Origin: Chromera velia
Lineage: Eukaryota; Sar; Chromeraceae
DNA: 64,000 bases
NCBI GenBank assembly: GCA_018398765.1
Contig: JAHBMJ010001217.1
Coordinates: 21,916-85,915, forward strand
Direction of reading: 5' to 3'
The position numbers and the translations under genes were made by a program. Positions 1-29,248 of the stretch are shown one piece after another (within the stretch, counting starts at the first letter, position 1; every line of letters begins with the position of its first letter). The notes beneath the pieces were generated by a model that saw only the letters and a program-made list of their open reading frames with translations, ran no database searches and had not been told where the DNA came from.

Positions 1-28
1 CCCCCCCCCCCCCCCCCCCACACACACA
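1..28. repeat. Poly-C run followed by CA dinucleotides
   Basis: The window opens with 19 C residues and then a short CA repeat. It lies inside the presumed first intron of the minus-strand VPS45 gene. A poly-C tract also flanks the N-gap near 36860, so homopolymer length here may be unreliable. Confidence 0.8.
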
Positions 29-180
29 GAAGCTCAAAAACACGATTTCTGACGAAGCAAGAACAAGATCGCCCTCTTCTCCCCTCCACCCATACACTCC
101 CAGCCTGCCCCACACACTCAGCACCGCTGCCCAACCCCCCCATGCCTTCCTTATCTTTTTCTTTCTCCTCACCGACTCAC

Positions 181-862
181 CCGCACGTTGAGCTGAGAGG
201 CCCATGGAGTCAAACAGGGCGCTGTCCGTGCTCATCCTTCTCTGCAACTCCATCGCGACCTCGTGGCAGATGTGTGAGGTTCTCTGGAACCTGATCATGG
301 GTCTTCTTCTGAGGGCCAGGACTGCAGAGAGGAGTCCCTCGATGACACGAGAGAAGGAGGTCTTCACGTAGAGACTCCACCCAGAGGGGTCCTGGGTCAG
401 TCCCGAGGTAGAAGGGATGTTCAGAGAGAAAAGATTGTGATTCATTGCAAACACATCTGCGTAGAATTCTTGGACCTGCTTCACGACTTCACATTCGTCA
501 GCTTTGGCAAGCTTTTCCAGTTGATCGTGTTTGACCACATTGGAAAAGAAGAGGTGGTACTCTCCGTAGCAGGGCTTTCGAAGTTCTTTTACGAGTCGGA
601 TGAAGTTCTCGGTGGTTGGGCGAACGAAGACAATGGCATTGACGTGTTTCATTTTCTCCTTGTGTTCCACATCAATCTTCTCCACAAGAAACACCTCCTT
701 CTCGAGGATCTGTGTCTGGCTGTACAAGAGAGAAATGATGCCGGTGGTGTCCTTATCAAGAATTAACACCTTCATACCCCCAACTTTGTCTATCATAGAG
801 CGGACATACTCCTGGAGGCATGAGACGATGCTCAGCTCTTGGAGGTTCGCCATTCTTGCCAT
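181..862 (-). CDS. VPS45: VPS45, Sec1/Munc18 family vesicle-fusion regulator (first coding exon, partial gene)
   Basis: The minus strand from an ATG at 862 (or 853) reads as the N-terminal part of a Sec1/Munc18 protein that matches VPS45 closely. Recognisable stretches are GGMKVLILDKDTTGIISLLYS, EILEKEV-like QILEKEVFLVEKID, KHVNAIVFVRPTTENF, VQEFYADVFAMN, HNLFSLNIP and RRRPMIRFQ, in the same order as in animal and fungal VPS45. The exon codes for about 227 residues, roughly the first 40 percent of the usual 550-570. It ends at a GTGAGT donor (complement of 175-180), so the rest lies beyond the left edge. VPS45 binds the syntaxin Tlg2/STX16 and controls SNARE assembly at the trans-Golgi and endosomes; in apicomplexans its homologue serves secretory-organelle traffic. 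It is head-to-head with the synthase gene. The family call is firm; the exact start (862 or 853) is open. Confidence 0.88.
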
Positions 863-1816
863 CCTGTCTGACTCCCCCACTATCCCGTCTCCGACCCTCG
901 TCCAGACAAATCTTTTCTCTGTTTGAGCGTATCAACAATGGAAAGTCAATCGATAGCGCCATGAAAGGGTGTTGCAAAAAAGCAGAGAATTGAAGCCGCA
1001 AAAGGTTTCCCGGAACAGCGACACAGATCTCCAGACATCTCCAGACTCTGTCCCGTTCTGATCCCGTTCTGTCATGTTCTAGCTGTCTTGAACTTTAGAT
1101 GAATACACCGCTTTCTGCGCTCACGCGCGCCAACTGTTTCAGCCGAAAGTTTTGTAGCTTAGCGGGCCCAGGCATGCCGCCTTCCGATTCATGCAGTGTA
1201 CGTAGCCGCGGGGCCCTCTGCATGACGGGCACCATGCATGCGTGCGTGGAGCACAGAAGAACCTCGGAGGGCGTGAGGTGTATATTTTTTGCACGTAAGA
1301 GGCCCCAGAAATGCAAAAAAACGCATTTTAGTAAATTAACGTACAGCGAATGTATATATACGTACGTAGAGAATTAAAATCGAGCCGTTTGTCACTCTTG
1401 TGAGGCACTTACAAATTTGGAACATTACTGAACCGGGTGTGTGTCACGTTTTTACTGGCTGTGTTGCGCGCGCGCGGAGGGCTTTAAACCCGACATGCGT
1501 TGCGGGCCGATGCGCGGGGGGGGTCCTGGGCCCTCCTGGTAAGGCAGCGCAAAGGGCCCCCCACCAAGGAAAACCCTCATGCGGGACACTGGGATCTGAC
1601 AGACACATATATGATCAGACTGAGGCCCAAGGGACGCCACCTGAGTTACCTGAAATGGGAAAATTAGACTCATCACAAAGGTTCATGCATCAAGATAATG
1701 TGTGTATACATGGGAGGACACGTGTTGCATTTGAGGACCGTTTTCTGGACTTGGGTCTGCAGATGTGCAGGACCTGAAGAACTGTGTTTTTGAGAGGTGG
1801 GTCTCAAGATTTTATT
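863..1816. promoter_or_regulatory. Divergent intergenic region between VPS45 and the synthase
   Basis: The two start codons point away from each other with about 950 bp between them, so both promoters should lie here. I see no TATA box or other motif I would defend. The segment holds GC-rich stretches around 1200 and 1465-1560 and a short AT-rich patch near 1320-1380. Open frames at 1095-1377 and 1400-1777 show no protein-like sequence. An in-frame TGA at 1775-1777 lies upstream of the chosen synthase ATG. Confidence 0.5.
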
Positions 1817-4800
1817 ATGGAGCAGGAGACGCAGGAGAAGGTCTCCTTGACTTCTCCGCCTCCCGAGCTCGCTCTGCGACCGGATCAGATTTCGAGAGAG
1901 GATGATCTTGTCCTTGTTTCCGCTGCCTGTCGACTCCCGCGGGCAGCGTCCCCGGAGGAGTTTTGGAGACTGCTGGCGTCTCCTGAAAATGGGGATCAAA
2001 AGCGAGAAGCCGTCTCCTGCCCTCCAGCCTCTCGGGGTTGGAAGAATTTGAGCAGATCGTTGAATCTCTATAAAGATTTCTCAACCAAGCTCGCTGAGAC
2101 AGAGTTTGGATGGATTGGTGACGTGGAGAGTTTTGATTGCGGCCGTTTTGGGCTCTCCGTGGCGGAGACGGCGGCCCTCGACCCTCAGCAGCGCTGGCTT
2201 CTTGAAGTGTCTCATGAGGCGCTGGTCGGTGCTGGAGTTGCCCGACAGGAAGAGTGCGGAGCAAGAGTCGCCTGTGTGGTTGGTAGCTCGTCTCGTGACT
2301 TTGCCGTCGAGATGCAGACGCTTCTTGTCTCTCATTCCCTGAGAGAAACAGCCGTAAAGGGCGAAAGAGTGTCGGCACAATACAGCCCGTCTCCCGTCTC
2401 TTCGGCTTTTGCCCTCACGGCTTCCAACTTCGCCCTGCTCGCCAACCGCGTATCTTATTCTTTAGGTCTCAGGGGGCCGTCTTTCGTCGTCGACGGCTCA
2501 TCTGCCTCCTCTCTGGTGGCGCTGGACTCTGCTGTGAGAATGCTGAGGGACCCCCAGTCGTTCTCTGCCCCCGATGCAGTTGTGGTAGGGGCAGTGAACG
2601 CAGTGTTCTCGCCCCAGGTCACTCTCGGCCTGGTGCTCTCCGGGGTCCACTCCCCTCTTGCCTCAGTGACAGGGGGCGGAGGCAGGTGCAGGAGCTTCGA
2701 CAGTGCCGCGAATGGTTTCGTGAGGGGAGAGGCCTGCGTAGCTTTCGTTCTGCGACGGTTGTCGTCCCTCACTGAGTCCGAGAAGGCCAGGGCACTGGCA
2801 ATACTGAGGTCCGTCTCTGTTGTACACGGGCGCCCAGCTGAGTGCCCGGGTGGGGACTGGACCCAGCCGCGAGCCATCGTCTCGCCCAGCAGCGAGGCTC
2901 ATTCCAAGGCCATTCGGGAAGCCGTTCGGGCAGCCGGTCTGGAGCCGTGGGAGGTGGCGGCAGTGGAGGCCCACGGAAGCGGGACACCTGCAGGAGATAT
3001 TGCAGAGATGAGTGCCTTGCGTGCGGCCTACCTGGAGAGTGTGCCTCGAAGGAGCTGCCCTCTGATTGTTGGGGCAGGGAAGAGCGTGACAGGGCATGCA
3101 GAGGGCGCTGCGGGTCTGGTGGGTCTTCTGAAGGCAGTTCTCTCCCTTCGTCACGGTGCAGTGCCTCCCATCAGACACCTCAAAGAGCCCAAACCGAAGG
3201 AGGAGGGGGGGTTCGGACACGACGAGTGCGTGCGGCTGCCATCAGACAGTACGGGGCCCCTCCGTCTTCTGCCACTGCTGCTGCGGTCTTCCTTGGAGTT
3301 CCAGGAGGGCGAAGGAGGGGATGAGCAGAAGCATTCGAGGGATGCTATTTTTATGGGAGTCTCCTCCCTCGGTCTCGGCTGTGTGAATGCGCACGCAATT
3401 GTTTGCACCGTGCCCAGAGATTGGGGGAAGATCATGAACGAGGGCGGGACGAAAACAGGAAGCGGTGGCGGAAGTATGACAACAGAGACAGAGACGGGCA
3501 ATGACGACCAGTCAGACAAAATTGCCGAAAAGGAGAACAAGAAACGGGATCAGCGCCCCCAGGCACAAGCGTCAGTCAGAAGGACGTAGGTGAATACCTT
3601 TGTTCCTTCTCTTGCAGACAACCCCTTCGACGGGTCTTTCTAGTTGCATGAACGCATGTACTCTCGAAAGCGAGCAGCCGTCCTTCTCATCCAGCTTGTA
3701 TTCTCTCTTTGTCCTTCTCGCACCTGCTGTCTCCGTGCGTGTGCACACACTCGCGTGCTCCATTTGTTCTCCGATCTCCCGCCTCTCAACGCCCGTGCTC
3801 TGTATGTGTGTGTGCGTGTCTGCGTATCTGCGTGAGTACGTGTCTTTGCAGCAACAAAAAGCGACTGACGTTTCCCCTTCCCTGGGGCTCTGATGTCGCT
3901 CTCCCCCTGCCTGCCCATGATTGGGGGAGGGACAGAGAGAGAGAGACCCCCACCACGACACAGAGGACTTCTCCAGGAAACTCGAAAAGGATAACTCCCT
4001 CCTCATCTGCCGCCCAAACCCCGCCAACAAAGACGGCGATGCCCTTGCGAACCATCAATGGCACTGCCGAGGCAACCCCAAAGCCCAAAGACGAAAGAGA
4101 AAAACCGCAACAACACGTTCGCTTTCCCCTCTCAGAAAGGGAGTTGGAAGGGGAATCGCGCAATCTCGAGGAAGAGGCAGGGGAAGAGGAGAAGAGGGAG
4201 AGTTGTCAGACTCCGAAGGGGAGTGTCGGAGTCAGGGAGGAGAGTTTGGTCCTCGGTTCAGATGGAGGGGGAGTGGGGACCTTGGGGTCTTCTTCTTCGT
4301 CTCTGTCTCCCCGGAAACGTGTAGGGGGTGACGAGGTGTGGCAACAGATGAGTGCCTCAGAGCGTCTGCGGGGAGTGACTGCAGTGGTGGATTCCTCTCT
4401 GAGAGAGGTTCTCCCTGCCCTCTCTCTCTCTGCCTCACCGGAAGGGGTCGAGATGGATGCGGAGATCCGGGGGGAGAGCGGAGAAGGAGATGGAGTTGCA
4501 CACGTTGATCGTGTCAGCCACTCGCAGAGCTTTCAAGAACTAGGGCTGGACAGTGCTGGTTCTGTCGAGTTTGTCGGCTTGCTGGAGTTGAGACTGTACG
4601 GCTCCAGGAGAGACGTGGGAGGCCGTTTGCCGCGCACTCTTCCCTTCGACTTCCCCTCTGTGTCTGCTCTTTCCGCTCACCTCGCAAGCGAGCTTGCTGG
4701 GGACTCCGCAAAGTCCTGCGCACTGCTGCCCACCGTCGATCCCGCCCTCCTCCGTGCTGAGTTGGAGAATCCCCGTGTGTGTATCGTCGGAATGGCCTGT

Positions 4801-6677
4801 CGTGCTCCCCGATCTGTCCGATCTCCGCGGGATCTCTGGTGGTGCGTGATCGAGAAGGAGGACGCCGTGAGCGAATGGCCACTTGTGCGGGGCATGGTGG
4901 ACGATCTGTTCAATCCCGAGTACTCAAAGAACGAACACGGCACTTATGTGAGGAGGTCGGTGGTAACACACACAGAGAGACATGAGGGTGGCCTTCCGTG
5001 TAGAGCCTCCATTTTTGGGGTCCCCTTCTTGTTTTTTCTCTCACTCCCGAAATGGCCGGCTGGATGCCTGGTTAACAGCACAGTGGACTATCCATCTATT
5101 TCTTCGATTGTCTAAATGACTCTGTCTTTTTTGCGCAACTGTCGGCCCACCTCTTTTCTTCGCTTACTTCTCTTTCTCCTTTACGTCCCCATTCAAAGAT
5201 GATAAAACGAGAAATTGAAGAGTCGAAGCTTCTGCCTAAAGTTTGTCCGCAGAAGGTGACTTGTGAAGGAAGTACCAGATTTTCATGTTCTTCATTGTTC
5301 GCACGGAATTCTCATTTAACGCACAAATTCTTTTGCTGTGCAAGCATGCCAAGAGGGACAAGTTCATGACTTGAGCAGCTCTGATTGACAATACATTGGG
5401 ATTAGTATACGTGCGATTTTTCACGTAGGTCCGTATGCATGTACAAGAACATATGAATTGCTTTATGCAGAGGCGGATTCATGGAGGACGTGGAGCTCTT
5501 CGACGCCCCCTTCTTTGACATGAAACCCCAGGAGGCGGCAGCCACAGACGTGCAGCAGAGGTGCATGCTGGAGGTTGCCTTCGAGGCTCTGCACGACGCG
5601 GGGTACTCAAAAGAGTCCATTCGGGGGTCCAACTGTGGTGTCTACCTTGGGGCTGCGTCCCCTGAGTGGCAGCATGTTGACAAGGAGATGCAGCACATCA
5701 AGAGGCAATCCCCGTTCATCATGCAGGGCAACCTCCTGTCCATTGTGTCCAACAGAGTCTCCTACGCCCTCGGCCTAAAGGGCCCATCCTTCTCCATCGA
5801 CACCGCCTGCTCCTCCTCTCTGGTTGCATTCGATATTGCTGTGAAGGGCCTGACCTTCAAAGCCCCCCAACCACAAAAGAGGGCAAAGAACGGACGTCGA
5901 GAAGATGTTCAACCAGAAGACGCAGAGTCCCTGCCTGAGGGGGCATTTGACGTCACGCCCTGTGACATGGCGATCACGGGAGGGGTGCAGATCAACCTGA
6001 CTCCCTCTGTCCTAGCCTACCTCTGCAAAGCAAGATTCTTGTCTCCGAACGGCAGGTCGGTCAGTCAGTCAGTCAGTCAGTCAGGCAGTCAATTAGTCAG
6101 TCAGTCAGACAGTCAATTAGTCAGTCAGTCAGTCAGTCAGTCAGTCAATTAGTCAGTCAGTCAGTCAGACAGTCAATTAGTCAGTCAGTCAGTCAGTCGG
6201 CCGGCTTCTCCCCACTGATTTCTGTGCTCCTCTCGATCTGCTTCTTCGAAAAGCCCCCCCAAGATACAGCAAAGAGCATACAGGCCGGTTTAAGTTCTTG
6301 GAGTTCTCAAAAGCAATCTGTAAGGCCCGTTTATTCCCTCTCCCTGATTGATGATGCGTGGCTCCTTGAATGATCGACAGACAATTTTCTCTGCGCCAAC
6401 CTCTCGTATACTTCTTACGCCCTCTCCTCATGCAATGCAATGCAGGTGTCGTCCGTTCGATGCGAAGGCAGACGGGTACTGCCGGTCGGAGGGGTGCGGG
6501 GCCGTGCTTCTCAAAAAGGCCGCAGCTGTGCAGAGAGACAGAGATTCTGTCTATGCGACTGTGAGAGGGACTGCCCTGACGCACGTGGCAAGGACAATGG
6601 TCGGTCTTTGGGTTTGTCTGTTGTCAACTTGTCTTTCCCTCCCTCTACCTGTTGATGTCTCCCGTCTCCATTCCTCC

Positions 6678-6719
<42 letters not shown>

Positions 6720-6971
6720 CGCTCGCTCGCTCGCTCGTGCGCATGCACACAGACACATACACATACATATACACATACGCACAAGATAAACACCTCCCGA
6801 CTTTGCCATGTGTGTCCGCCCTGAGTCTCTCTCTCTCAGCACTGTTCTGTCATCTGGCAAAGAGTTTGTGCCGCTCTTCAGTACAAATGCTTTCTGTCTT
6901 GTCTTCTCCTCTGCAGGTGCTGACAGCCCCCGGCAGTGAATCACAAGCAAGGTGTATTGCAACTGCACTTC

Positions 6972-7009
<38 letters not shown>

Positions 7010-7028
7010 GTGTGTAGGTGTGTGCAAA

Positions 7029-7060
<32 letters not shown>

Positions 7061-10000
7061 GGCGACGGCCGGTGACCGGAATTGGCAAGCTGCGCATGGA
7101 GCGCGAGGAAACGACTTTCGTTGTCTTCCGCATCTTTTCCCTCCGCTGAACGGAGTGCGTAGGACCGTCGCCCTCAGGCAGGCAGACAAAAAATCACTTC
7201 CAGCTCCCTGTCAAGTGCAGGGAGACAAGAGACTTCTCACTTTTTTTTTGTTTGGAGTGCAGACGAGAGCAAAAAGAATTTCCCCCCCTTTTTCTGAGAA
7301 GACCGTATTTCCTTGTCTGACTTAATTCCTTCTGCTTCCCTGCAGGACGGCCGAGTCCGACCCGAACGAGTGAGCTACTTCGAGTCCCATGGAACCGGCA
7401 CCTCCCTGGGTGACCCCATCGAGATAGACGGCATTCGAAAAGTGTTTGGGTCCGACTCTTCTGAGGCTGCATTCGCGGCTCCTTTGGTGATAGGTGCCCT
7501 AAAGGGCAACATCGGGCACTCGGAGGGGGCGTCGGGGATCCTGGGGCTGATCAGGTGCGTGCTGTCTCTGATGCAGGGAGTGGCAGCCCCGATCCTCCAC
7601 CTGAGGAATCTGAATCCCCATCTGGGCCTCGACAGGTTCGGCAAGAGAAGAGTGGTCCTCCCTTCTACAGAGAGTGGGGCACTCGAACTGCGTGCACAGA
7701 GAGAGGAGAAAGAGTCTGCGGGGGTGGGAGACGAGGAAGAGGAGGGAAATGGCCTGATCGGGTGTGTGAGTGCGTACGGGTTTGGAGGAGCGAACGCGCA
7801 CGCTGTTGTGCAGGCAGCCTCGGGACCTCTGGCACGGGGGCGCCTGCCTGCGGAGGACAGTGGCAGTAGAGACCCCCAAGGGGAGGGCGAGAGACGCGTG
7901 TACCCGTTCCCATGGAAGCACAAGGTAATCAATTAGATGGGCACGTGAGTGCGACGTGAACAAGAAAGGAGGGGAAGAGAAAGGGAATGAAGAGACAAGG
8001 TTGCATGACAGCCCTGCGAGAAGAGAAAAAGAAGGGCTCACGCTGTTTTCTCTGACAACGTGGAAGTTGTGACGGAGACCGGAGGTAAAGAGATCCCCCA
8101 CCTGTTTCATGTCGGACACAACAAACAGGGAGGCAGGCTCAGCTGTAAGTATGCGTGTGCGTTGGAATGTCTGTGTCTGTGCATATATTATGTATTAATG
8201 TGTCTGTGCCTGCAGAGGTTTCCGTGGATCCCCATTGCCCACCCCATGACTGGGGCTCGTCGACCGCATGAGTATTTCGGCGGCCTGAGGGGCACCTTTG
8301 AGGGCGTCTACGAGAGCTTGCTTAGAGAGGACACCGCCAGCGTGTACTCTGACCACAAAGTCCGTTTCTACGTTTCTCTGCATGTGCGTGTGGTAGTCTG
8401 CGTGGACAAACACATGTCTGGAAGTACGTCTCGTGCGGCTGGTAGCTGTGGGTAGACGCAGATATCTGCTTGTGTCGTCCCCTGGATGAGCCTTACTTCC
8501 CGTTTGTCTCTCTTTCTCTCTTTCGTTTTTCTTTTTTGTCCGTCTGGATGGATGGATGGATGATGCAGGTGATGGGTAACCCCCTGGTGCCTGGGATGGG
8601 CTATCTAGACATTATCGGGGGGGCAGCGGTGGACTCTCTGTTGAGGGAGGAGAGGACGCTTGTGAACCCTCCGACGGGCAATCTCCCTGCGTCTGTGTGG
8701 GACTTCTCTTGTGAGGACCTGGGATGTCCTCTCGGGTGGGATGTCGGCATCGTTTTTGAACAGGTGAGAGAGACAACAGTTGTGTAGATGGGTGTGGTAC
8801 GGGCAGTCGCTTTTGTCTTGGGAGACAAAGACCCGTCAGCAAGAGCGGCAATCACTTGGTTGCCTGACTTGAGAGATAGACGGTTGACAGACGGTTGGAA
8901 TAGCACAAAATGGCAAAAATGGAATGAGGGGAACAAATGCAGCGGAATACAAAGAAAGAAAACGACCGCTGGATATGCACTTGGTGCCTCGTGCTGCAAA
9001 GCCTGATCAGCATTCGCTCTTCTGTCTACCTGTTGTCTCAACTTATTGTTTTTTCGGGTCGTCTCCGCTCTCTTAAATTGATACAGATCCGTCGGCAGGG
9101 CAAACTTGAGTGATAGAGAGAAGCAAGTAGGTAAATGCGTTTGACCCTCTTCTTTGGTTGATTCCTTCAGGTCGGCTTCATTCGGCCCTTCCGCCTTCCA
9201 AGAAAGGTGAATCCCAACCAACCTTGGGTCGTCTCGGTGGGTCTGCAGAGGGAAGAGGAGGAGGAGGAGGCGGAAGAAGGAGACGAGAGTGATGCAGAGC
9301 AGGGGGAGGAGGAGGACGAGAAAGACGCAGGGAAGCAAGAAGAGAAGGGTGAAGAAAAGAAGAAGCAAGAGACCGAAGGAGCAGACGGGGCAGGGGAGAA
9401 GAAGCTGGGTCTTGCCAAGCCTTCAGGTCGTCACTTCGTCGTGTCAGTCAAGAACCCGATCGAGGAGACGCCCGAGAGAGTCTGTGAAGGCAACGCGAGA
9501 GCGTTCATCGCTCCCCTCACACAATCCTCGCACTCGCTCTCTTCCCAGCGGGCCGGTTCTGACTCCTCCAACAAGTTTTCATCCCTCTTCGAAGAATTGG
9601 ACTTTGAGATCTTGGGAGATCGTCCAGAGTCTTTAGAGCCGGGGGATACTCAGGAGAGAAACACAAACAGCAAAACAGCCGGGCCCGACAAGTTCGGTTC
9701 TCTTGAAAACGTCAAGCAGCGCTGTCTTTTTCACTTGACCCCTCAAGAGAGGCTCGAGAAACTTGGCGACAGAAGCATCGAAGAGAACGCTCCAGTGTGG
9801 GCAGCCTCCCGGTTTGAATCAGACTCATGGTACACTTCCGTGATGCCGCCTAACCTGGCCCTCTCTGATCGTTTCAGGGTGATGAAGGACTTCGCTGTCA
9901 ACCCCGAGTTCGGCCCGGCCCCGTCGCCTTCAGAGATCCGGCCTCTCTCAGGGGACCATGGAGAAGACCCGACGGGCGGCTGGAGAGAGGAAGCGGAGGG

Positions 10001-19000: not shown

Positions 19001-22000
19001 GCTCTCCTGCTGATCATTGTGATTTTGATTGTTTATGACTCGGTGGGATGACCTCCCCGCAGGACCTGTGGGGAGCGACGTTGCGGGGACGGTTGTACAC
19101 GTTGGCTCCGGCGTGGAGGGGCTGCGGGAAGGGGACGATGTGTTTGGAATCGCCTCCACAGGGTGCCTCCGGACTTACGTTCAGGTACATTCTCTCAAGC
19201 GTGCTTGATTTGGATAGAATTATTTCTGGTTGTCTTTCGGGGAGCAATACTTTTGTTCCGCAAGCGTGCGTTGACTGAAGCCTTCTTCTCGGCGCAGATA
19301 AATCACGAAAAAGAAAATACACACGTGGTTGCTGCGCACAATTGAAGCTATTTGCATGTTTCGGGGCGTGCCTGCAGACCCCTGCAGATCTGCTGGTGCG
19401 CATTCCGAACAGAAGCCTGAGCTTTGAAGATGCTGCTTCGCTACCGACCTGTTGTGCGACGGTCGAGCTGTCTCTCGGACCCGAGGGCGCGGCACTCAGG
19501 AGCGGGCAGCGCGTTCTCTGCCATGCGGTAACAGGGGGTGTTGGGCTCTTTGTGGTGCAGTACTGCAAAGCCGTGGGGGCCTCTGTGGTCGGCACTTGCT
19601 CGGACGGTAAACGGAGGGCGGCAGAGGAGGCGGGGGTGGAGTTTGTGTCGTCCTCTAGAGACGCCTCTTCGTTTCGACAGGACATGTTCCTCTGGATGGA
19701 GAGACACGGGAAGGTCGACGTGGTGATCAACTGCCTCAGGGTGAGTGCATGGGTAGAACAGTATACGTGTGAATGCGAGTGCGCGGAAAAGTTGGATTGA
19801 ACGCCTCTGCACGTCTTGACTGGTTGATATTCATACACTGCACCTTTTTGCATGCATTTGCAGGCAGGCCTGAATGCCGCCTGGCGGTATTTGCCCGCAT
19901 AAATGAAGAATAAAAACTTGTCAGGAGAGCGCAAACAGAATGTCATCACTCCACATGTTTTTTTGCTTTGCAGGATGAATTTGTTCCGCATTCCCTCGAG
20001 GTGCTTCGAGAGGGTGGCGTCTTTGTGGAACTAGGAAAGGGGGCTGTGTGGTCGAAAGAGAGAATGAGAGCGGCCAGACCGGACGTCAAGTACATACCCG
20101 TAGAGTGGGATACTGTCGCATTCGAGAGCCCCGTGAAGGCGAGGGAGCTCCTCGAGAGGACTGCAAGAAAGATTCACACAGGGTTCTACTCCCCCATCCC
20201 CACGCATGTGTTCGACATGACTAGAGAGGGCGAGGGAGGATGTGTAGAGGCCATGAAGCTAATGCAAAGAGCGCAGCATATCGGAAAGGTGGTGATATCC
20301 GTGCCCTCTTCACTTGGCAAAGACCGCCAAGCAGTGGCGGAGGGGACAGTCGCCATCACGGGAGGCCTCGGGGGTCTCGGCCTCTGCTTTGCCCGCTGGT
20401 TGCAGGTCTGCATGTCTGTTTGTCTGCCTACCTGTCTGTCAGTCAGTCTGTAAGTCCGTCTGTAGGTCAGCCCAATTCCGTGCCACTGTCTGTTTGCTGT
20501 GGGGTGACTCCCTTCTTCCAATGTTTCAATCCCCCTTCTCCGACCTCTCTCGTACTCCGTTTCTCCATGCAGGCATTCGCTCCCTTCTCCACTAAATCTC
20601 GGATCGATTCCTTCACTCACTCACTCACTCAGTGTTCCTTGCCGGGCCTTCTCTTCTGCGTCTGCATTTCTTCCTAGCACGTCGCAGCAATGCTATTTGA
20701 ATGATCGGCATGCATCAGAATGGTGCACACGAATTGTGTGGAGGAGATACACGACAACATATCTATACAACCGCACACAAACACCTTCGAGTCATGCGCT
20801 CTTTCTCCTCGATCGGCTTTCTGCCCTGTCGTGCAGCACGAGGGTTCGAAGAACGTCCTTCTCCTTTCCAGAAGGAAGGTGAAGATGAGCAGGTCGGAAA
20901 AGGGACTGGAGAAAAATGAGGACTGGGGGATGATCGTGGACGCCCAGACACAAACTGCAGATGGAGGGGGCGCACTGAGCGTTAACAAAGTGGTCACCGA
21001 ATCCTGCGACGTGGCAGACATCGAACAGGTTGGCCGTGGAGCTCTCAAAAGAAAACAAACGTCCACCTGCCACCACGCAGTAAATACGCATTTCGTCTCC
21101 TTTCTATTCTGTTCTGTTCTCCCCTCTGGATTGTCCGGTTTCTTTGAGGGTCGAATCCACCCGCGTGCTCACTTGTTCTTTCGTACATTGGTTTCATCTG
21201 GTGTACGTTTGCATGTTCGATCTCTAAAACGGGGCAGCGCTGGATTGAGTGATCTCTCCCCCATTTGTTGTGTGTGACATTTTCTTCGACTGTTAACTTG
21301 TCGTCTGCCTCGAGAAGTCGCAATGAGACGCCATGCATCTGTGAACACTCTCTCCCGATTTTCCCGCGTCTGCCCTCCCTGCCCGATGATGGATGGACAG
21401 GCGGAGATTCTCCGCACAAGTGTCTTCGAAGAGCACCTTCACAAGTGCTTGTGAACAAGTGATCAGGATAGTGGAAGATCATCGCACAGGAGTATCAAGG
21501 TGTCATACGGGAATTGTGCACTTCATCGCTGCAGGTGCGGAGGGTTCTTTCAGACGAGCACCTTCGCACACTCGGGCTCCCTCCTGTGACCGGGGTGCTT
21601 CACTCCGCAGGCCTCTTGGACGATGCTCTGATCGACAACCAGAGCGTTGAGAAGATCGCCCGCGTGTTTGAGTGCAAGGCGAGGGGGGCCTGGAATCTTC
21701 ATGAGGTTCTCGGGGACCGTCTTCGTCTGTTCGTTCTCTTTTCCTCCATAGTCTCTCTTTGGGGAAATGTGGGACAGGTCAGAAGACAAAAACAAACTGA
21801 CAAGAATGCACACTGCTATAGGATGTCGGATGCATGCAGGAAGGAAGGGAGGGAGAAATATGAATCGTAATTGTGGCCGCAACGTCACAAGTAAGAGAGA
21901 CACGTGCAGTACATAAGTGGAGAAGGGATCTTCCAATCCAAATCAAACCGAAGAGATGTTTGACTTTGTCCTCTTCTTGAGTGCCCCCCCTTTTTTTTCC

Positions 22001-25000
22001 TATGTTGTCTCTCGCCTGGCTCTCCTCGATTTTTCCTTCTTGTCTCCTCTCCCTTTTCTGAGCTCTCCCATGCAGGTCAACTACGGAGCTGCGAATTACT
22101 GTCTTGACGCTCTTGCCTCCTTCCGACGTTCCAGGGGCCTCCCTTGCTTGACCCTCAACTGGGGGTTCTGGGGGGAGCAGGGAATGGGGGCGGAGTCTGA
22201 GGACAGTCTTCTGCAGACGGGCATCCGACCGTTGTCATCCGACCTGGGCAGGAGGGTCATGGCCGACGCGATGCGCCTGTTCGGAACCTCCAGGGACAGC
22301 GACTCCCAGTTCGCACTGGGGGCACAGCCGCTGATTGCCTCCCGATATGCAGCCAGAACCAGCGAGATGCCGAGGGGACCCTATTGGTCCCGAGTGACAA
22401 TTGAAAGCGATGAAGCGGCAGATCTGGGAGCTGAAGAATTGTTGGGGCTTTCCGACGAGGAGATCGCAGAACGCACAGGGCAGCACATTATTAGAACAGT
22501 GTCGGAGGGGGTCTCCCCTGGCACTGCGGGGGGAGAGTGGACCCTGGACACGCCCTTGAGTGAGCTCGGCATGGACTCTCTGGCTGCTGTGGAGGTTCGA
22601 AACGCCCTCCAGACGCGTCTGTCCGTCTCTGTACCCGCTTCTGTTTTCCTCGAGTCCGAAACACTGCGCGACATTTCGGGCTTCATCGCGCAGAAGCTGA
22701 TCGCAAAGCGAGACGCGGCAGCTGCTGCGTCAGGGGGGAAGAAGAAGAACACAAGACCAAACAGCGAACAAAAGCAACGGCAAAAGAAAAAGAGAAACAC
22801 CACACCGGCCTCTGGCAAACTGCAGCCCCCCCCGCCCTTATCGTCCCACCCGGCAGTCACCGCCTTTCTCTTTACAGGCCAAGGATCCCAGTGGAGCGGT
22901 ATGGGTGTGGACCTCTACGGGGCAAATAGGGTTTTCCGGGAAGCCATTGATGAATTCAGCTCTTTCTTTGCTGACCGCCTCAGGGATTCTCATTCCGAGC
23001 TAAGTCTTCCTGTTGAAATCACCAGCGACACGTTGCGCGAGGTGATGCACCGTCGCGAGGACAAAGCAGATGGGGAGGGCCTCTCGCTGAACTCCGCTCT
23101 TTTTGCTCAGCCTGCTATCGTGGCTGTGGAGCTTGCACTGCTCCGCGTGTGGGAGACAGCTGCAGGAGTGCGTCCCCGGGTGGTCATCGGCCACTCCCTT
23201 GGAGAGTACGCTGCGGCCGTGGCGGCAGGTTGCCTGAAGTGGCAGACCGCGCTTGCTCTCGTGATTGAGCGGGCCCGACTGACGACTCAAGTCCCTCGGG
23301 GAGATGGGGTGATGGCTGCAGCCAGGGTGAGAGCTGAGGATGTGCGGAATGCCTTTGCGAAGCTGCCCTCCAACATTCGACCCCGAGTTGCACTTGCTGC
23401 AGTGAATGGGCCCTCCTCTGTGGTGGTCTCAGGGGAGAGTGCGGCTGTTAGGGAGACCTTTCGGCTCTTGCGTGAGGACACTGAAGGGGAGTATTCAGGA
23501 AAATATCGGAATCTGAAGACGAAGGAACTCGATGTCACTCATGCGTTTCACTCTCCTCTGATGGATCCCGTCGCAAAAAGGTTCAAGCACTTTCTGGACT
23601 CCTCCTCTATCCTTTCCAAGGGCCTGCAAGGGACGGCCTCTATCCCTCCAGTGTGTGCGCCCCTTGAAGGCGTCACGTGGGTTTCCACAGTCACGGGGGG
23701 GCGGATCGGCGCGTCCTCCGATGAGCTCTCCGTCCTTCGCAGCTCTGTCCACTGGAGGTCTCACATTAGCGACAGCGTCCTCTTTGAGCCCGCCATGACG
23801 ACGGTGGTTGCAGAGATGAGTGCCTTGTCTTCCCACCCAGATGCTCCTTTTCTTTGGGTGGAGGTCGGCCCCTCTTCCACTCTCACCTCTCTTGCAAAGG
23901 CCTGTCTTCCTCTCGAGGTCAGACAGTCTCAGCGACTGCAGCTATGGCTGTCCTCCATGGACAAGACCGCACCGCAGGAGGCAGCTGCCAGGCTGGAAGC
24001 ACAAATCGCTCGCGTTCGTATGCACCTGCAGTTGGATGCCCACACAGCGACGAAGGAGGAGAAAGAAGCAGCAGCAACAAACTCTCGCCGGGACCAGAAA
24101 GAGGAAAAGCAGGAACTGAGAGAGAGCGCTTCTTCCCAGCCGATAAGGACCAGCGCAGATGCCGTAGCTGCACCTGCTAAGCGTTCTGCACTCTTGCAGG
24201 CGCAGGCTCTCCGTCTCGCCCCTCTCGGTGACGCAGCGCAGCTTGTGCGGGAGTTGGCCTTCGACAGGAGTGCACTCTCGCCCCCTGCTGCCCCTGAAGA
24301 CATTCGGTGTGTACTCTTGACGGGGGCCACCGGATTTGTCGGTCGCTTTGTCCTTCGGGCTCTTCTTGGACACGGGAGGAAGGACCTGCCGAGGTCTCAG
24401 CAGCAGGTGGCGGCAAGAAGAAGGAATCGGCTCTGGGGGGGAATGGGGAGACGTGGACGGGGTGCCGAGTTTCGCGTCGTCTGTGTGGTCAGAGGAAAAT
24501 CTGACTGTGATGCCTACGAGAGGGTGCGTGCCGCTTGTGTAGAGTCCGGTGTGTGGGACGAGGGGTTGATTCCAGGGGGGCGGTTGGAGGTGTTGAGCGG
24601 GGACCTTGAGTTGCCTCGCATGGGACTTTCAGAAGAGACTTGGAAGAGATTGACGGAGACAGTGGACGCGGTGTATCACGTGGCTGCGGTCTTGTCACTC
24701 GGGAAGGGGTCAGTCAGTCAGGGAGTCCAGCAGCCACACATAGCGATGAGAGGAAACAGACTGTTACATTCACAGCTGAATTGATTTTCACAAAGAGGAG
24801 AAGGACCATTCAGAAAACGCACGAGCAAAGTTGAGCGAATAATACAAGTGTGTACTACTTCGTTTTGCATCGTGCATCGCTTCTCTTGCTGGGCACATCT
24901 CTGGCTGTGTTCATGCCTCCTTGCGCCCGCGATCGTGCCCAACCTGAAGCGCCATGAATTTGATCTATCGCTGTATCCAACTATGGTATACTGGTTGCAG

Positions 25001-28000
25001 ATACACCCGCCTGAAGGGGCCGAACCTCGTGTCTCTAAAGGGGGTTGTTGCGCTCTGCACGACGGCGAAACTGAAGCATCTCTTCTACACCTCCACAGCA
25101 GGTCGGTTCTTCAGCTGTCTGGGCCTTTTTCCTTGACATGACGCAAAACGATGTTGCAGTTTCGTACGCACTTTTATTGTTTGAATGCATCTCTGTGTGC
25201 AGCCGTTTGGCTCTCTCTCTTTGCAAGAGATGCGCGGTCGTTGGAAAGTCTCCGAGACTGCGAAGCTGCCTGGGCGCCGCCGTCCTCCTCGAGTGACGCC
25301 GCAACGGAGGACGACCTTCTGCTGATGGAGCGCCTTGTCCCTCCGCACGTGTCCGGGTACATATGGACGAAGGTGTGTTGGGAGCCCCGGGCGGCCCGCC
25401 CTTTCAGCAACGAAAACTGGTTGAAGAGAATGATCGAAGTCGTTTCTCAATTGTAGTCTCTTTCCTCACTCGACTCTCCCTCTTCCCCTCTGTGCAGGTC
25501 GCTGCCGAGCGGGTGCTCAGAGGCCTGCGGGAGCGCTGCGGTCTGCCCTCTGTGATTTTCAGATTGGGGTCCAACACCTCCATCGCAGCGCGCTTCCCTG
25601 CCCTCGGAGGGTCGCGGTATGTGCAGACCCTTGCGATGGCCGCTGCTCTGAAGCATAGAATCATGCTCCCAGCCGCACAGCCGTGGGTGGCAGTCGACAC
25701 CGCTGCAGAGCTCATGGTCCGTTTCGTTTGTGAGTTAATTTGTCTGCGCTTTTGGTTGGCTGTTTTTTCTTCAGTGAATAACCCATATTCCAGTGTCCTC
25801 TTGCTCCTCAAACGGCGCATGAAATTACTGCGAGCAGAGGACGGCGGAAAACGAGTGTGCTGCCCTGTTTTAAAAAGCGACTTGGGTGTCAGCAGGTGGA
25901 AGCAAGCAGCCTTCTTTCTCGTCATGAGGGATAATTTCTTAATCTGTAAGTGGTAAGGTGAGCCCGGAAGACAAAAGGTATCCGTGTCCCTCCGACAATC
26001 AACTTTGGCAAAAGCGCTATCAAACCTGTAAATCCTTTCCGCTATGCGTGCAGGTGCGTAGACTGTTCACTGGTCACGCGAAGAGAAGCGACTACTTCCT
26101 GTTTGACATGAGCGCACAGGCTCAGGTGGTTGCTGCATGCCAGCAGGAGCTCTTTGAGAGCACAAACCTCCAAAACTCCTTCAACGAAGAGATCCGCGAG
26201 GGGTCTCTGAGAGACGTCCTCTCCCTGGAGAAGGGGGACCCCTCAAGTCCCCTCTCCGGCTCTTCCATGCTTCTGGAGCTCCTCACCAGTGTTGCAGAGG
26301 CATTGGACAAAACCGCAACTTCCCCCGGACCCTTGGAAAGGAGGAACGGGGTGGGGGGTCAAGCAAGGACCTCCCTCGTGCATGCGGCTGAATGGGAGAA
26401 GTTGAGTTCTGCCATCTTCGAGGATCTCCCCTCCTCTGACACGCCTCCATGGCCTGACCCGACGATTCTCGCCTGGCGTTTCGGCACTGCCTGCTGCCGG
26501 TTTGAACTCTTGGGGGGAACCCCTCCCAGAGAGCCTGCGTGTCCAAAAACAAAAACAGCAGAAGGGGAAGGGGAGTGCAGGGGGGCGAGGAGGAATTCCT
26601 CGACCGCGGGAGCAAAGGGCCTCCTCCAGTCGAGCGCCCTGATTGTCAGCAGGACTGGAAGCCTAGAGAGGAGCGGGGATCGGATGGAGGGCCGAGGAGG
26701 CAGGCAGGATGGGGGGACGGAGGAGAATCCCCCTAGCTCGGAATTTGACTCCGCCGCTTCTCTGCATCATGGGGTCTACGTCGATTTGGAGTCCCTGCAG
26801 CGAGACCTGGACGCTGTAGAGTCCCTCCATCCCGCGTTCGGGGGCACAAACGCCTTCCTTAGTCTGAGGGTATGGAAGGCAAATGGACTCAGAAACCGTC
26901 TCGCCCTCTCAACGCTCGTGCCTCGTCCCCTCCGACCTCCTCGACAAATTCGAATGGAGTCCCCTGTAGTGGTCACCGGGCTCTCCCGATTTTGGATAGG
27001 CGTCGTTGCAGACTGCCTCGAGGCCAATGAAGCGCTGTGCCTCCTCAGGCCCTCAGTGTCTGATCTTGTGTCCCCTTTCGGAGCGGCAGGCGGAGGGGAA
27101 CGCTGGCGAGAGACTGAAAAGGCTGTTGCCCTCGCTCTGTCTTCTGTCGGAGTTGCCTTCTCCCCAGTTCGCGTACCCCCGACAGAGACACTGCCGCACG
27201 ACAGAGAGAGAGGCCTTCGGGGCATTAGCCGGATGCGCACACGCCCCCTTGAGGATTCTCCTCTCTCCTCCCGGCCTGAACTTCCTGACGTCCTGCATTG
27301 CTCCGATGGACTGGCAGAACTTTGTCTGTCCCCCCTCGTGCATGGGGACTCCCTTGTGTCCTCCCAGCTGGAAGGACCCGGTCCTGTACTCGACCCTGTC
27401 GTCTTGGCAGTGCGTGGACTGCACGGGGAAATCGTGGAGCGCGGCCGGCGCGCACCGTCACCTGGGCGTGCGGCGGCCCTGTACAGTTTCTACAGGAACG
27501 TGGTTGAACGGGGGTGTGCAGGGGGGAAGCTCCGGGGGTTCAGGGATGCAAATAGACAGGAATGCGAGGGAGGGGTGCAGATGGAAGGAGTGAGGAGGCC
27601 CTCAGCCAAGACAGACCGCGTCTTTTCGCGGCCCCTTTCTATCCCCGATCCGGCTGCCGCCCTGGAGAGCCCCGGGGGGGGTGGGGAAGACTCTGAAGCA
27701 AGACGCACGACCCGGAGAGTTCTCATGTGTGACGTGGAGCACTACGGACAGATGGGCGCGCTCCTTCGTGAGTTTCCGGATGCCGCCATTGTGGTCGTCG
27801 ACAGGTAAGGGCAAGAGGAAAGACAGACAGAGATGCTTATTTTTGTGCTTGCACGTCTGATCAGCCGTCTCCCGCCCCGCCCTTACGTCAAAGCAGAAAG
27901 CAACGCACACCATTGCACGGGGCCAGTCAGGAAAATCCCAACCTGCCCGAATTTTCTCCTTCATTTGTTTGCGAAGGAACCTGCCCGTCTACCCATGTCA

Positions 28001-29248
28001 TAGAACCCTAGCTCCCTCCTTTGATCTCTCACTGCTCCCTCCCTCTTTCGATCAGCTGTATCCTCTAGTGTAAGTTCATTCCCTTAATTCCCGTATTTTA
28101 TGATTAGCCCCTCTGATTCTGTCGCCTCGGCTCCACCGTGTGCCCAAGCTCCTTTCTTTTCTTTGTGCATACACTTTCGTAGGGAGTGGTTGGTTCAGCC
28201 TGTCTCTGGCTGGCTTCCCGACTCTTCTTCATGATAGCATGGGTGTTGCTGTGTGGGACGGTTCTCGTATAGAAAGCTCAATCATTTCAATCGCATTGAG
28301 ACGCATCTGTCAAGCACACGGCTCTCCCCCACCGTGATGATGGCGTGCAGTCCCGCTGAAGATGCCGCGCTCGAGTGGGCCCTTTTCAGTCGCATAGCAG
28401 CGGAAGCTTTCTTCCAGACCGCAACGGCTGGCAGACAGAGAGAGGGCACTGCTGCTGCACGGGGAGAGGAAGTACGGCAGAATCTGATCTCCCCACTCTC
28501 GGTCTCGGAGCTCCTTCCGATCGCCAGAGAGAGCGTCGCACATCTGGTAACCGCCTTTGAGACGTTCCTCTCCTCTGCAGAAGGGGTGAGTGCCTCGGAA
28601 GAAGGCCGTGTGCAGAGGGTCTCTCTTGAGGCTCTGACTGAGCGCGGAATTTCTGGTCAAACTCTGCACACACTCGCTTCCCGCCTCAGTCCTGTTGGTG
28701 GGGCCTCTAGAGAAGGGGGGCAGCTGAGGAGTAGGAGTAGCGCTGGCAGGCGGGGGCAACGGGCGGGGGCGGGTGGCCCTGCCGACCCTCCGGACGACGG
28801 TATCACCCCGAGGTGCGGCTTCTTGATGAGACAGCCGAGTGGGGGAGGACAGGCCCAAAAGAGACAGAAGAAAAAAACAATGTGGGGGTACTCCGACGTG
28901 CGTGAGAGAGCCCGCAGCCGCCTGGAGAGGTTCCTTCAGACGCGCAGGCAGGCAGAGGCCGTTGTAGCCGCAGCAGCGAAGATCAGACAGGCTTTTCGCA
29001 GTACTAGAGAAACGAAGAGTGGAGAAAAGAAGGCACAGTCGTCTGAGAGGTCTCAGGAGGGGGGCGTGTCCATTCTGAGAGTTTCCACACAGCCGGCCGG
29101 ACCATGGGGGGATTCTGTAGAAACAGCTGGGGAGGCTTCAGAAGCCCTCTCTTCTTCTTCCACGCTCGCGACCTTGGCGCGTCTCCTGTGCTCTCACGAC
29201 AGCACCCTGAAAGCCGAAGCTGAGAAGTGGCTTTCCCGATCCGTGTGA
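1817..29248 (+). CDS. Large modular type I PKS/FAS-like synthase, KS(Ser)-ACP-KS-DH-ER-KR-ACP-AT-TR
   Basis: I join 24 exons: 1817-3585, 3852-4955, 5471-6055, 6446-6599, 6917-6973, 7346-7924, 8216-8359, 8569-8763, 9171-10085, 10456-12045, 12365-12439, 12670-12756, 12953-13088, 19063-19184, 19378-19740, 19974-20405, 20837-21028, 21535-21777, 22076-24708, 25001-25101, 25203-25372, 25498-25716, 26054-27804 and 28351-29248. All introns are GT-AG, every junction keeps frame, and the total is 14,514 coding bases (4,837 residues). The start is the first ATG after an in-frame stop at 1775. The domain order is unusual: no AT sits in either KS module, and a single AT follows the second ACP. A reductase domain suggests reductive release, as in apicomplexan type I synthases. 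The protein is probably cytosolic; I see no signal peptide. The weakest point is the 3' end: acceptors at 28237 and 28350 both fit the phase, and I chose the one that opens a 299-codon exon. The product is unknown. Confidence 0.85.
1898..3415 (+). CDS. Domain: N-terminal ketosynthase with Cys to Ser substitution
   Basis: Residues about 28-533 of the synthase, all in exon 1. The fold signature is complete: LVSAACRLP at the start, ALDPQQRWLLEVSHEAL, ANRVSYSLGLRGPSF, EAHGSGTPAGD with His386, and KSVTGHAEGAAG with His427. The nucleophile motif that normally reads DTACSSS reads DGSSASS here, so the catalytic Cys is Ser229 (codon 2501-2503). Both His residues are kept. Ketosynthases lacking the Cys cannot carry an acyl thioester for condensation, but loading-module KS domains with a replaced Cys can decarboxylate malonyl-ACP to make an acetyl starter. 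Its position as first domain, before an ACP, fits that role by inference. Confidence 0.85.
4348..4700 (+). CDS. Domain: acyl carrier protein 1
   Basis: Residues about 756-873, in exon 2. It has the carrier signature FQELGLDSAGSVEFVGLLE, with Ser824 (codon 4552-4554) as the phosphopantetheine site, followed by FDFPSVSALSAHLASEL, the usual helix 3-4 region. A low-complexity linker rich in Glu, Ser and Lys (exon 2 start, 3852-4340) separates it from the first KS. No AT, KR or other catalytic domain lies between the KS and this ACP. Confidence 0.85.
4771..7824 (+). CDS. Domain: second ketosynthase, apparently active
   Basis: Residues about 896-1383, spread over exons 2-6. It starts with VCIVGMACRAP, then VELFDAPFFDMKPQEAAATD, NRVSYALGLKGPSF and the intact nucleophile motif DTACSSSLVA with Cys1071. 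His1238 is in ESHGTGTSLGDP and His1281 in KGNIGHSEGASG. The domain ends with GFGGANAHAVV. All three catalytic residues of a condensing KS are present. Tiny exon 5 (57 bp) carries the LTAPGSES turn. The chain then passes straight into a dehydratase with no AT. Confidence 0.88.
6056..6201 (+). repeat. (GTCA)n tetranucleotide tract at the start of intron 3
   Basis: Immediately after exon 3 the intron begins with repeated GTCA units, broken by a few CAATTA variants, to about 6200. Each unit recreates GTCAGT, which this gene also uses as a real 5' splice donor at introns 10, 13 and 19. Confidence 0.85.
6681..7057 (+). repeat. Microsatellites in introns 4 and 5: (CT)n, (GT)n, (GA)n
   Basis: Intron 4 contains a CT run at 6681-6715 followed by (GCTC)n, and CA-rich steps to about 6785. 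Intron 5 starts directly with (GT)n from 6974, so the donor is embedded in the repeat, then has (GA)n near 7028-7057. The 57-bp exon 5 at 6917-6973 lies between these tracts. Confidence 0.85.
8216..10890 (+). CDS. Domain: dehydratase with large acidic insert
   Basis: Residues about 1417-1980, exons 7-10. The hot-dog catalytic motif HKVMGNPLVPG matches HxxxGxxxxP with His1463; exon 7 ends and exon 8 begins inside it. The second motif HPGLLDGFLQ supplies Asp1841. The domain is about twice the usual 280 residues because exon 9 carries a low-complexity Glu/Lys-rich insert (9246-9410, residues about 1555-1610) and further charged spacer before the second motif. It should dehydrate beta-hydroxyacyl-ACP. 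Both catalytic residues are present, so I expect activity. Confidence 0.82.
10890..12756 (+). CDS. Region: post-DH linker, probable structural pseudo-KR
   Basis: Residues about 1980-2418, the rest of exon 10 with the two small exons 11 and 12. It sits where fully reducing synthases carry a non-catalytic KR-like subdomain between DH and ER. A strand-like DGFLVLSLTGG and the later RKWRCVVYTGALEMP and GLWGFARCFRTEMEV segments fit that kind of fold. The last of these resembles the WGxxRxxxxE motif often found before the ER. Charged low-complexity stretches interrupt it. The assignment is by position and weak motifs only. Confidence 0.55.
12953..20316 (+). CDS. Domain: enoyl reductase, split by the 6-kb minisatellite intron
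   Basis: Residues about 2419-2733, exons 13-16. Exon 13 gives VRAVGLNFRDVLNVMGLYPG, a hallmark of PKS/FAS enoyl reductases. Exon 14 continues with GSDVAGTVVHVGSGVEGLREGDDVFG. Exon 15 has IPNRSLSFEDAASLP and the nucleotide-binding loop CHAVTGGVGLFVVQYCKAVGA. Exon 16 has LEVLREGGVFVELGKG and the closing GKVVISVP. Intron 13 (13089-19062, phase 1) divides the domain after GLYPGAA. It should reduce the enoyl-ACP double bond using NADPH. Confidence 0.87.
13206..18786 (+). repeat. 11-bp minisatellite filling intron 13
   Basis: About 5.6 kb of a unit close to GACTCCAGTCT, with common variants GACTCCATTCT, GACTCCAGTCG and 13-bp forms GACTCTGCAGTCT and GACTCTCCAGTCT. Stretches are locally homogeneous: GGCTCC-type units at 13899-14005, CGGACTCC at 14005-14130 and CTCCAGTCTGA at 17760-17960. 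The unit is 11 bp and carries no stop codon on the minus strand, so all three minus frames stay open for hundreds of codons (one for 1,367). These are not genes. The array lies within the spliced intron 13089-19062 of the synthase, between two enoyl-reductase exons. Confidence 0.95.
20340..22390 (+). CDS. Domain: ketoreductase
   Basis: Residues about 2746-3020, exons 16-19. The NADPH loop is VAITGGLGGLGLCFARWLQ, followed by KNVLLLSRR. Exon 18 holds GVLHSAGLLDDALI and the catalytic Ser2904 in FVLFSSIVSLWGN. Exon 19 opens with VNYGAAN, giving Tyr2917 and Asn2921 at the expected spacing of 13 and 17 after the Ser. The LDD motif is typical of B-type ketoreductases, which give the D-3-hydroxy product; that stereochemical reading is inference from family rules. 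Confidence 0.87.
22447..22720 (+). CDS. Domain: acyl carrier protein 2
   Basis: Residues about 3040-3130, in exon 19. It contains LSELGMDSLAAVEVRNAL with Ser3082 (codon 22577-22579) for phosphopantetheine, then PASVFLESETLRDISGFIAQKL. A basic Lys/Gln/Pro-rich linker at 22730-22855 joins it to the acyltransferase. Confidence 0.9.
22855..24020 (+). CDS. Domain: acyltransferase, malonyl-type, located after the last ACP
   Basis: Residues about 3175-3560, entirely within exon 19 with no intron. It has AFLFTGQGSQWSGMG at the start, the nucleophile motif VIGHSLGEYAAAVAAG with Ser3288, and THAFHSPLMDP with His3406. In bacterial PKS enzymes HAFH is typical of malonyl-CoA selection. The remaining end signature VEVGPSSTL is also present. 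It is the only AT in the gene, so it must serve both ACPs in cis or across a dimer, or be helped by a free-standing enzyme. Confidence 0.88.
24298..25716 (+). CDS. Domain: NAD(P)-dependent thioester reductase (reductive release)
   Basis: Residues about 3655-3955, exons 19-22. The extended short-chain dehydrogenase signature is CVLLTGATGFVGRFVLRALL, followed by FRVVCVVRG, LEVLSGDL and VDAVYHVAAVLSL. Exon 20 ends with KHLFYTSTA, and exon 21 supplies the YxxxK pair in SGYIWTK (Tyr3878, Lys3882). Exon 22 has RLGSNTSIAARFP. Such domains reduce the ACP-bound thioester to an aldehyde or alcohol in carboxylic-acid reductases, NRPS/PKS release modules and apicomplexan synthases. A normal thioesterase is absent. 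Confidence 0.84.
26054..29248 (+). CDS. Region: unidentified C-terminal extension of the synthase
   Basis: Exons 23 and 24, residues about 3956-4837. The first part (RRLFTGHAKRSDYFLFDMSAQ and the following) may close the reductase fold. The rest I do not recognise. It contains a Gly/Arg-rich patch near 26570-26740, an ordered-looking stretch with PVVVTGLSRFWIGVVADCLE, and RRVLMCDVEHYGQMGALL followed by DAAIVVVD at the exon 23 end. Exon 24 begins PAEDAALEWALFSRIAAEAFF, looks helical, then becomes Gly- and Lys-rich. It could be a substrate or docking domain, but nothing proves it. The exon 23/24 junction is phase-compatible but is the least certain in the gene. Confidence 0.6.

Follow-up and report, generated by a model that had tools for sequence, protein, structure and literature searches.

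How does a type I synthase charge its carrier proteins when neither of its KS domains is followed by an acyltransferase (AT)? The question is raised by a predicted gene of Chromera velia whose only AT lies between the last ACP and a C-terminal thioester reductase (TR). The gene lies on the forward strand of a 64,000-nucleotide stretch of DNA (bases 21916-85915 of contig C1216; hereafter, the window), and the genome searched comprises 177,833,721 bases in 4040 contigs. Judged from its sequence, it is a chromerid type I PKS/FAS-like synthase with an AT outside its module. The reading favored here, at a probability of roughly 0.58, is that a C-terminal "semi-trans" AT, displaced from the KS2-DH junction, would load both ACPs, with KS1-ACP1 as the starter unit, KS2 responsible for extension and the TR for release.

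Gene model and domain order

The gene was modeled with a script combining coding scores and splice sites, with similarity to further PKS loci in the genome as a guide. The script returned 23 exons; a 24th (8216-8359, the start of the DH) was added by reading frames. The resulting model (1817-29248, 24 exons, 4269 residues) contains no internal stops, as its construction ensures. Its exons near 6381-7009 are rough, the last three (26054-29248) were called by coding score alone, and the 3' border of the TR is uncertain. Pfam profiles and motifs on the predicted gene give the order KS1-ACP1-KS2-DH-ER-KR-ACP2-AT-TR. An initial annotation of the window had proposed the same order and the identical span, and both are reproduced by this independent model; only the residue numbers of the AT differ (Ser3153/His3271 here vs. 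3288/3406), the spacing being 118 in each case.

The end of the KR, ACP2, the AT, and the start of the TR are contained in a single exon (22076-24708, borders predicted) within one open frame of 955 residues (21917-24781). The ACP2-AT-TR order is therefore independent of splice prediction. The initial annotation had allowed for the region from 22855 onward belonging to a separate gene; this possibility is rejected on the sequence, as the common frame contradicts it, although a transcript that begins internally is conceivable. The other joints of the polypeptide correspond to predicted splicing, and the KS, ACP, AT, and reductive domains are found in one predicted chain, as is typical of type I PKS and FAS.

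KS1 is probably N-terminal in the synthase, the ATG at 1817 being used as the predicted start. An N-terminal part of a Sec1-family gene (2-931, reverse strand; Pfam Sec1 147.3 bits, profile matched from position 1) is oriented head to head with the synthase, which suggests that the latter starts between this part and 1817. A stretch of N, either an assembly gap or withheld sequence, occupies nearly 10 kb just ahead of the window (about 12.3-21.9 kb of the contig) and ends close to the window start. A synthase N-terminus hidden in this run is judged unlikely because of the same head-to-head arrangement, unless the Sec1 gene has 5' exons beyond. Elsewhere in the window, a 48-bp tandem array (194.7 copies) occupies 41175-50592, and the forward strand at 53102-56822 resembles an endonuclease/exonuclease (E 3.2e-6) and, weakly, a reverse transcriptase (16.9 bits, under the cut-off), so that it is perhaps a retroelement relic.

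A single acyltransferase behind the last carrier protein

The AT (22853-23920, residues 3039-3394 of 4269) is recognized by Pfam PF00698 with 143.6 bits over profile positions 2-203 of 319. Its C-terminal part is present as well, since the BLAST alignment to the AT of the C727 locus runs from 22838 to 24031. The active site motifs (GHSLGEY with Ser3153, Arg3178 within ERARL, and HAFHS with His3271) match those of malonyl-type ATs. The combination of HAFH and the arginine is associated with malonyl specificity; the domain thus carries the residues of a predicted malonyl transferase. Among solved structures, its five closest relatives are modular PKS chains, headed by a GfsA chimera with AncAT; FabD and trans ATs rank lower.

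A six-frame Pfam search of the whole genome yielded one AT match on the contig, in agreement with a search using the AT itself. When 23 other ATs (chromerid sequences, Escherichia coli FabD, and two from solved PKS structures) were used as tblastn queries against positions 1-31000 of the window (E up to 0.1), all 23 matching pieces fell in the AT region. No second AT was found in positions 1-31000 by tblastn or on the contig by the six-frame search. This includes 7925-8215, where the initial annotation had considered that an AT exon might have been overlooked; the exon that follows (8216-8359) resembles the beginning of the DH. Pfam, tblastn, and the open frame thus all agree with the earlier observation that neither KS is followed by an AT and that the sole AT lies between ACP2 and the TR. 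Among the KS queries, nine matching pieces fell outside KS1 and KS2; they stem from C409b, C781b, and C2171a, which also carry AT, DH, or ACP sequence.

The arrangement departs from the known classes in different ways. KS2 is followed by the DH and the AT comes after ACP2, so that the AT does not directly follow the KS of the extending module as it does in type I modular PKS and FAS. An extension module lacking an AT is a feature of trans-AT PKS, as seen in the AT-less modules of green algae, but there the AT is a separate protein, whereas here it belongs to the same chain (PMC4661987, as far as the cited part describes these systems). In the semi-trans-AT PKS, as presented in the cited part of PMC7073580, one AT lies within the same polypeptide, and a single AT was likewise found in the present synthase by six-frame Pfam and tblastn searches; their AT is N-terminal, while here it is situated between the last ACP and the TR.

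A free-standing trans AT might instead replace the in-module ATs, the C-terminal AT being left with a special task, e.g., the loading of ACP1 or the removal of stalled chains. In green algae, trans-AT PKS are the predominant kind according to the cited part of PMC4661987, and the genome does encode a FabD-type AT (contig C1139). The latter is, however, probably a plastid protein: a plastid acyltransferase of C. velia is mentioned in the cited part of PMC7464705, and C1139 may well be its gene. Moreover, the window AT is of the in-module type with its malonyl residues retained, which makes the replacement by a trans AT decidedly improbable.

KS1 and ACP1 as a putative loading unit

In KS1 (1892-3451; PF00109 152.8 bits, PF02801 100.2 bits) the catalytic cysteine is replaced with serine (codon 2501-2503), while both histidines are present. 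The domain reads D-G-S-S where other KS read D-T-A-C, and alignments to 7zma and 4mz0 are ungapped at this place. The change is absent from the initial annotation and alters the reading of the first module. Substitution of the first KS cysteine by serine or glutamine with retention of both histidines is the hallmark of the KSS/KSQ type, and it is what KS1 displays. Since serine replaces cysteine while both histidines remain, the sequence suggests that KS1 is a decarboxylating loading KS. KS domains with the same cysteine-to-serine change in the loading modules of actinobacterial polyene synthases are described in the cited part of PMC12843615 as only decarboxylating the unit delivered by an AT. 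The order of those modules is KSS-AT-ACP, whereas no AT was found between KS1 and ACP1 in the six-frame Pfam search of the genome or in the tblastn search of positions 1-31000. ACP1 (4435-4677) carries Ser692 (4552-4554) in an LGLDS motif and reaches 18.6 bits with Pfam PP-binding (cut-off 20.8).

KS domains with threonine in place of cysteine (DTATSSSL and DTATSASL) are encoded at C612:43705-44034 and C1782:23582-24343, respectively; downstream of each lie a stretch that by eye resembles a carrier domain but has no Pfam match, and then a second KS. The first KS of C612 runs off the contig end. In the KS tree, neither locus groups with KS1, and as these threonine-bearing domains exist and branch apart from it, AT-less loading pairs seem to have arisen more than once in the genome. 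The tree contains 24 rows besides KS1 and KS2, so that, of the 53 KS match pieces, many are not represented; the filter detected no frame for C3834 at 36 kb, which was omitted, and the rows of C409b and C781b are filled in 34% and 36% of the columns. The branches of KS1 and KS2 in this tree measure 3.84 and 1.66.

The extending module and the reductase

KS2 (4768-7822; PF00109, PF02801) extends over several exons, joined by the script used here, and contains Cys939, His1141, and His1184. The DH (8240-10902) is divergent, bears a long acidic insert, and has no Pfam match; it was recognized by its HxxxG motif (DHKVMGNPLVPG, with His1366 present) and by matches to paralogs. Some part of each of two paralog queries covering KS, AT, and DH matches 10798-10926 (E 2.4e-4 and 6.3e-4) and, weakly, 8213-8362 (E 0.060 and 0.024). 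The second catalytic residue of the DH, an aspartate, is apparently replaced with arginine, as read by eye in a region where the MAFFT alignment is poor. The ER (12040-20303, borders approximate; Pfam ADH_N, ADH_zinc_N, and ADH_zinc_N_2) includes a predicted intron of 6 kb (13089-19062) that consists mostly of an 11-bp minisatellite (13204-18789, 494.6 copies). The KR (20343-22375; Pfam KR 173.5 bits on the joined 23-exon protein) contains Tyr2782, its serine and asparagine having been read by eye. It is followed by ACP2 (22445-22708; Pfam PP-binding 46.4 bits; Ser2947 at 22577-22579) and, beyond the AT, by the C-terminal TR (24305-26119; Pfam NAD_binding_4 107 bits; Tyr3760, Lys3764).

The long branches of KS1, KS2, and the AT would also suit relaxed constraint, and together with the apparent loss of the second catalytic residue of the DH they count against the favored reading. 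The same features could be expected if the gene were decaying or misassembled, an unused copy whose AT position serves no function. Against such a gene speak the long exons that remain open (1657, 1533, and 2633 nt) and the retained residues of KS2, ACP1, ACP2, KR, AT, and TR; moreover, the sole run of N inside the window is at 36863-36880, and the ACP2-AT-TR join lies in one open frame ending in a linker resembling that of sister genes. We consider such a nonfunctional gene highly unlikely.

Placement of acyltransferases across the genome

Among the 24 AT loci scored in the genome, the nearest upstream domain is a KS in 19, at a distance of 592-1396 bases. No upstream domain was scored in four (C1139, C2087, C3973, and C675), and the window gene is the one case in which it is an ACP, 178 bases away. 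These counts derive from 29 AT, 53 KS, 15 TR, 39 KR, 52 ACP, and 36 DH match pieces merged by position. As the matches were made exon by exon, they constitute lower bounds, and domains missing from the table may just be unscored; the ACP1, DH, and KR of the window gene are themselves absent from it. For comparison, 29 AT domains in chromerids, plus modules without an AT, are listed by Tomcala 2020 (PMC7464705, cited part).

Two sister genes, at C3391 and C608, share with the window gene the KS-ACP-KS-DH-KR-ACP-TR core and a similar linker ahead of the TR. Their scored order is ACP-KS-ACP-KS-AT-DH-KR-ACP-TR, the first KS-ACP unit having no scored AT. The match to the window gene is incomplete because their first KS keeps its cysteine and is preceded by an ACP; in addition, their AT is found between KS2 and the DH. 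The gene at C819:705-20341 (ACP-KS-DH-KR-ACP-KS-DH-KR-ACP-KS-AT-DH-KR-ACP-TR) resembles the window gene in its AT-less KS-DH junctions, in carrying a single scored AT alongside three KS modules on the contig, and in the terminal TR. In contrast to the window gene, its AT occupies the normal place in the last module, and more may lie upstream, as the contig starts within the gene. An intron position common to the window gene and module 1 of C819 was compared by eye and is not claimed.

Other ATs of the genome show peculiarities of their own. The in-module ATs at C409:118052-118906 and C781:24123-24974 have GHG and GRG instead of GHS and lack HAFH; these serine-less domains are probably dead and left in place. 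The AT at C675:68279-69289 has fungal FAS beta subunits as its best solved relatives (best E 8.6e-75), and a KS match (49.7 bits) lies 7 kb downstream; these similarities suggest a fungal-type FAS at this locus.

Likely traces at a putative former site and at the present site

The junction between KS2 and the DH (VYPFPWKHK / RFPWIPIAHP, 7898-8245) spans one predicted intron (7925-8215), with the splice joint predicted between WKHK and RFPW. It corresponds to the strand that in AT-bearing paralogs follows the AT and precedes the DH (e.g., WKHKSFPF in C3391), and is also seen in the AT-less modules of C819. In the window gene, 52 residues separate the NAH of KS2 from the DH start HPMTG, with VYPFPWKHKRFPWIPIA as the preceding stretch. 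Over 17 residues, the junction is identical to that of C3391 at 10 positions, of C727 at 9, of C2410 at 8, of the AT-less module 2 of C819 at 8, and of C608 at 7, in ungapped registers picked by eye at the conserved HP; none of 20000 shuffles scored as high against any of the five paralogs.

Complementary features are present around the AT itself. The linker between ACP2 and the AT (22709-22852) comprises 48 residues of low complexity. Behind the AT, the first part of the post-AT linker (23921-24037) is still joined to the domain, and, by eye, what the AT lacks is the last strand of this linker, i.e., the part remaining at the KS2-DH junction. The linker ahead of the TR (24212-24304) is like the ACP-TR linker of the sister genes: an ungapped stretch of 29 residues ahead of the TR core aligns with C3391, C608, C510, and C727, and in none of these comparisons did any of 20000 shuffles do as well. 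Since these residues match the linkers of four sisters, the AT and the first part of its post-AT linker lie inside the ACP-TR linker. The traces fit a move of the AT within the gene, short of proof.

The AT could alternatively be the remnant of an eroded third module, whose KS, reductive domains, and ACP were lost while the AT of the second module disappeared separately; it would then still be a shared AT. Modules without a scored AT are indeed common in the genome, as in C819, where two out of three KS modules have none, and the AT tree joins the window AT to no single paralog. On the other hand, no KS relic was seen in the 48-residue ACP2-AT linker, the pre-TR linker resembles that of the sisters, and the KS2-DH junction retains the terminal portion of the post-AT linker, the part that, by eye, is missing from the displaced AT. 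These features render a third-module relic unlikely in comparison with displacement of the AT from KS2-DH.

Sequences between KS and AT were compared by seeking NAH, at the KS end, and FTGQG, at the AT start, in one frame. Both were found in seven of 13 contigs or loci (C3391, C608, C819, C727, C612, C1549, and C2410). As the gap in these seven measures 28-50 residues, the KS-AT linker domain of CurL (about 130 residues) seems to be absent from the corresponding chromerid PKSs.

Origin of the acyltransferase

In a tree of 24 rows, the window AT falls with the type I ATs, from which the two FabD rows (FabD and C1139) are split off at 100/99. It groups with 17 of the 19 chromerid in-module ATs at 80/90, C1305 and C3434 being placed outside. 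Its branch is long (1.63) and has no supported partner, the pairing with C2171 in the best tree reaching 64/21. Of the two bacterial rows, one is an AncAT that comes from a laboratory chimera, and the sequences of FabD and C1139 are incomplete. C2087 and C675 were excluded before tree building, and neither C3973 nor a short AT piece (C133:4-255) was included. AU tests reject none of the four constrained placements: a relationship to FabD (p 0.195), to the bacterial rows (p 0.169), or to the C3391 group (p 0.0975), and a chromerid group without the window AT (p 0.363). Because the branches are long, the tree does not settle the origin of the domain.

The two p values for FabD and C1139 and for the bacterial rows leave room for recruitment of the AT by fusion from a bacterial or plastid gene of the FabD type. 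In the kept tree columns, the window AT likewise shares its highest identity (40%) with the AT of a laboratory construct, the GfsA KSQ-AncAT chimera. The separation of FabD and C1139 from the type I ATs argues against such a fusion, as do the scores of the NCBIfam models (198.1 bits for type I vs. 130.8 for fabD, both under their cut-offs) and the retained part of the post-AT linker. No close relative of the ACP2-AT segment was found in bacterial or archaeal contigs by a search reaching close relatives only. A FabD-type origin is thus hardly credible, and an AT displaced within the gene is retained as the favored reading.

Proposed mechanism and relation to known synthases

In the mechanism considered here, the AT displaced from the KS2-DH junction would act in cis while detached from any KS, loading malonyl onto both ACP1 and ACP2. 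Forming a loading unit with ACP1, KS1 would decarboxylate malonyl-ACP1 to acetyl-ACP1, and KS2 would condense this acetyl starter with malonyl-ACP2. The product would be reduced by the KR, the ER, and perhaps the DH, and after one or several rounds the TR might free the thioester as an aldehyde or alcohol. The proposal of the initial annotation that one in-cis C-terminal AT substitutes for the missing in-module ATs is consequently kept as the best reading, the AT having the residues of a malonyl transferase.

The accompanying suggestion of an unrecognized design was too strong: a shared in-cis AT has been described, and the part of the C819 gene on its contig has three KS and one AT. O'Neill 2020 (PMC7073580) reported a single N-terminal in-cis AT in haptophytes and Breviolum minutum, termed it "semi-trans", and proposed that it supplies all modules; chromerid PKS are described as cis-AT in the cited part of that paper. 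As a shared AT is already known from the N-terminus of haptophyte PKS, the design of the window gene is a variant rather than wholly new, its novelty with respect to the cited part of that work being the C-terminal placement. Literature searches on ATs placed behind an ACP or unusual domain orders, on semi-trans ATs, and on algal and alveolate cases (the last in part among the matches listed) gave no C-terminal example in the titles and abstract openings of open-licence papers. Further related sources, cited in part, are Woo 2015 (PMC4501334) and a review of ATs (PMC6164871). Product release by a reductase has parallels in the apicomplexan CpFAS1 and CpPKS1, which share the C-terminal reductase with the window gene; these are three- and seven-module synthases, unlike the window gene, and the comparison, based on partial accounts, concerns release and module number, not AT placement.

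Shelest 2015 (PMC4661987) proposed displacement of ATs to separate genes and called the order of displacement and duplication unclear; the cited part of that paper sees hardly any convincing support for an iterative trans-AT PKS, the intermediate to be expected. We tentatively suggest, at somewhat less than even odds, that the window gene represents, in a eukaryote, a frozen intermediate of AT displacement: the AT would have left its KS within the gene, the end of its linker staying behind, and entered the ACP-TR linker, from where it might serve, at a distance, both an extension module and an AT-less, decarboxylating loading pair made up of the serine-bearing KS and an ACP. If so, rebuilding a type I synthase without its KS-AT unit is possible even while the enzyme stays one chain. 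An AT that is displaced yet covalently attached, with likely traces at both its old and its new site, bears on the transition from cis-AT to AT-less synthases. Should the AT indeed charge both ACPs, the KS-AT unit would be dispensable in this natural synthase, which would then offer a natural, testable design for one AT common to several modules.
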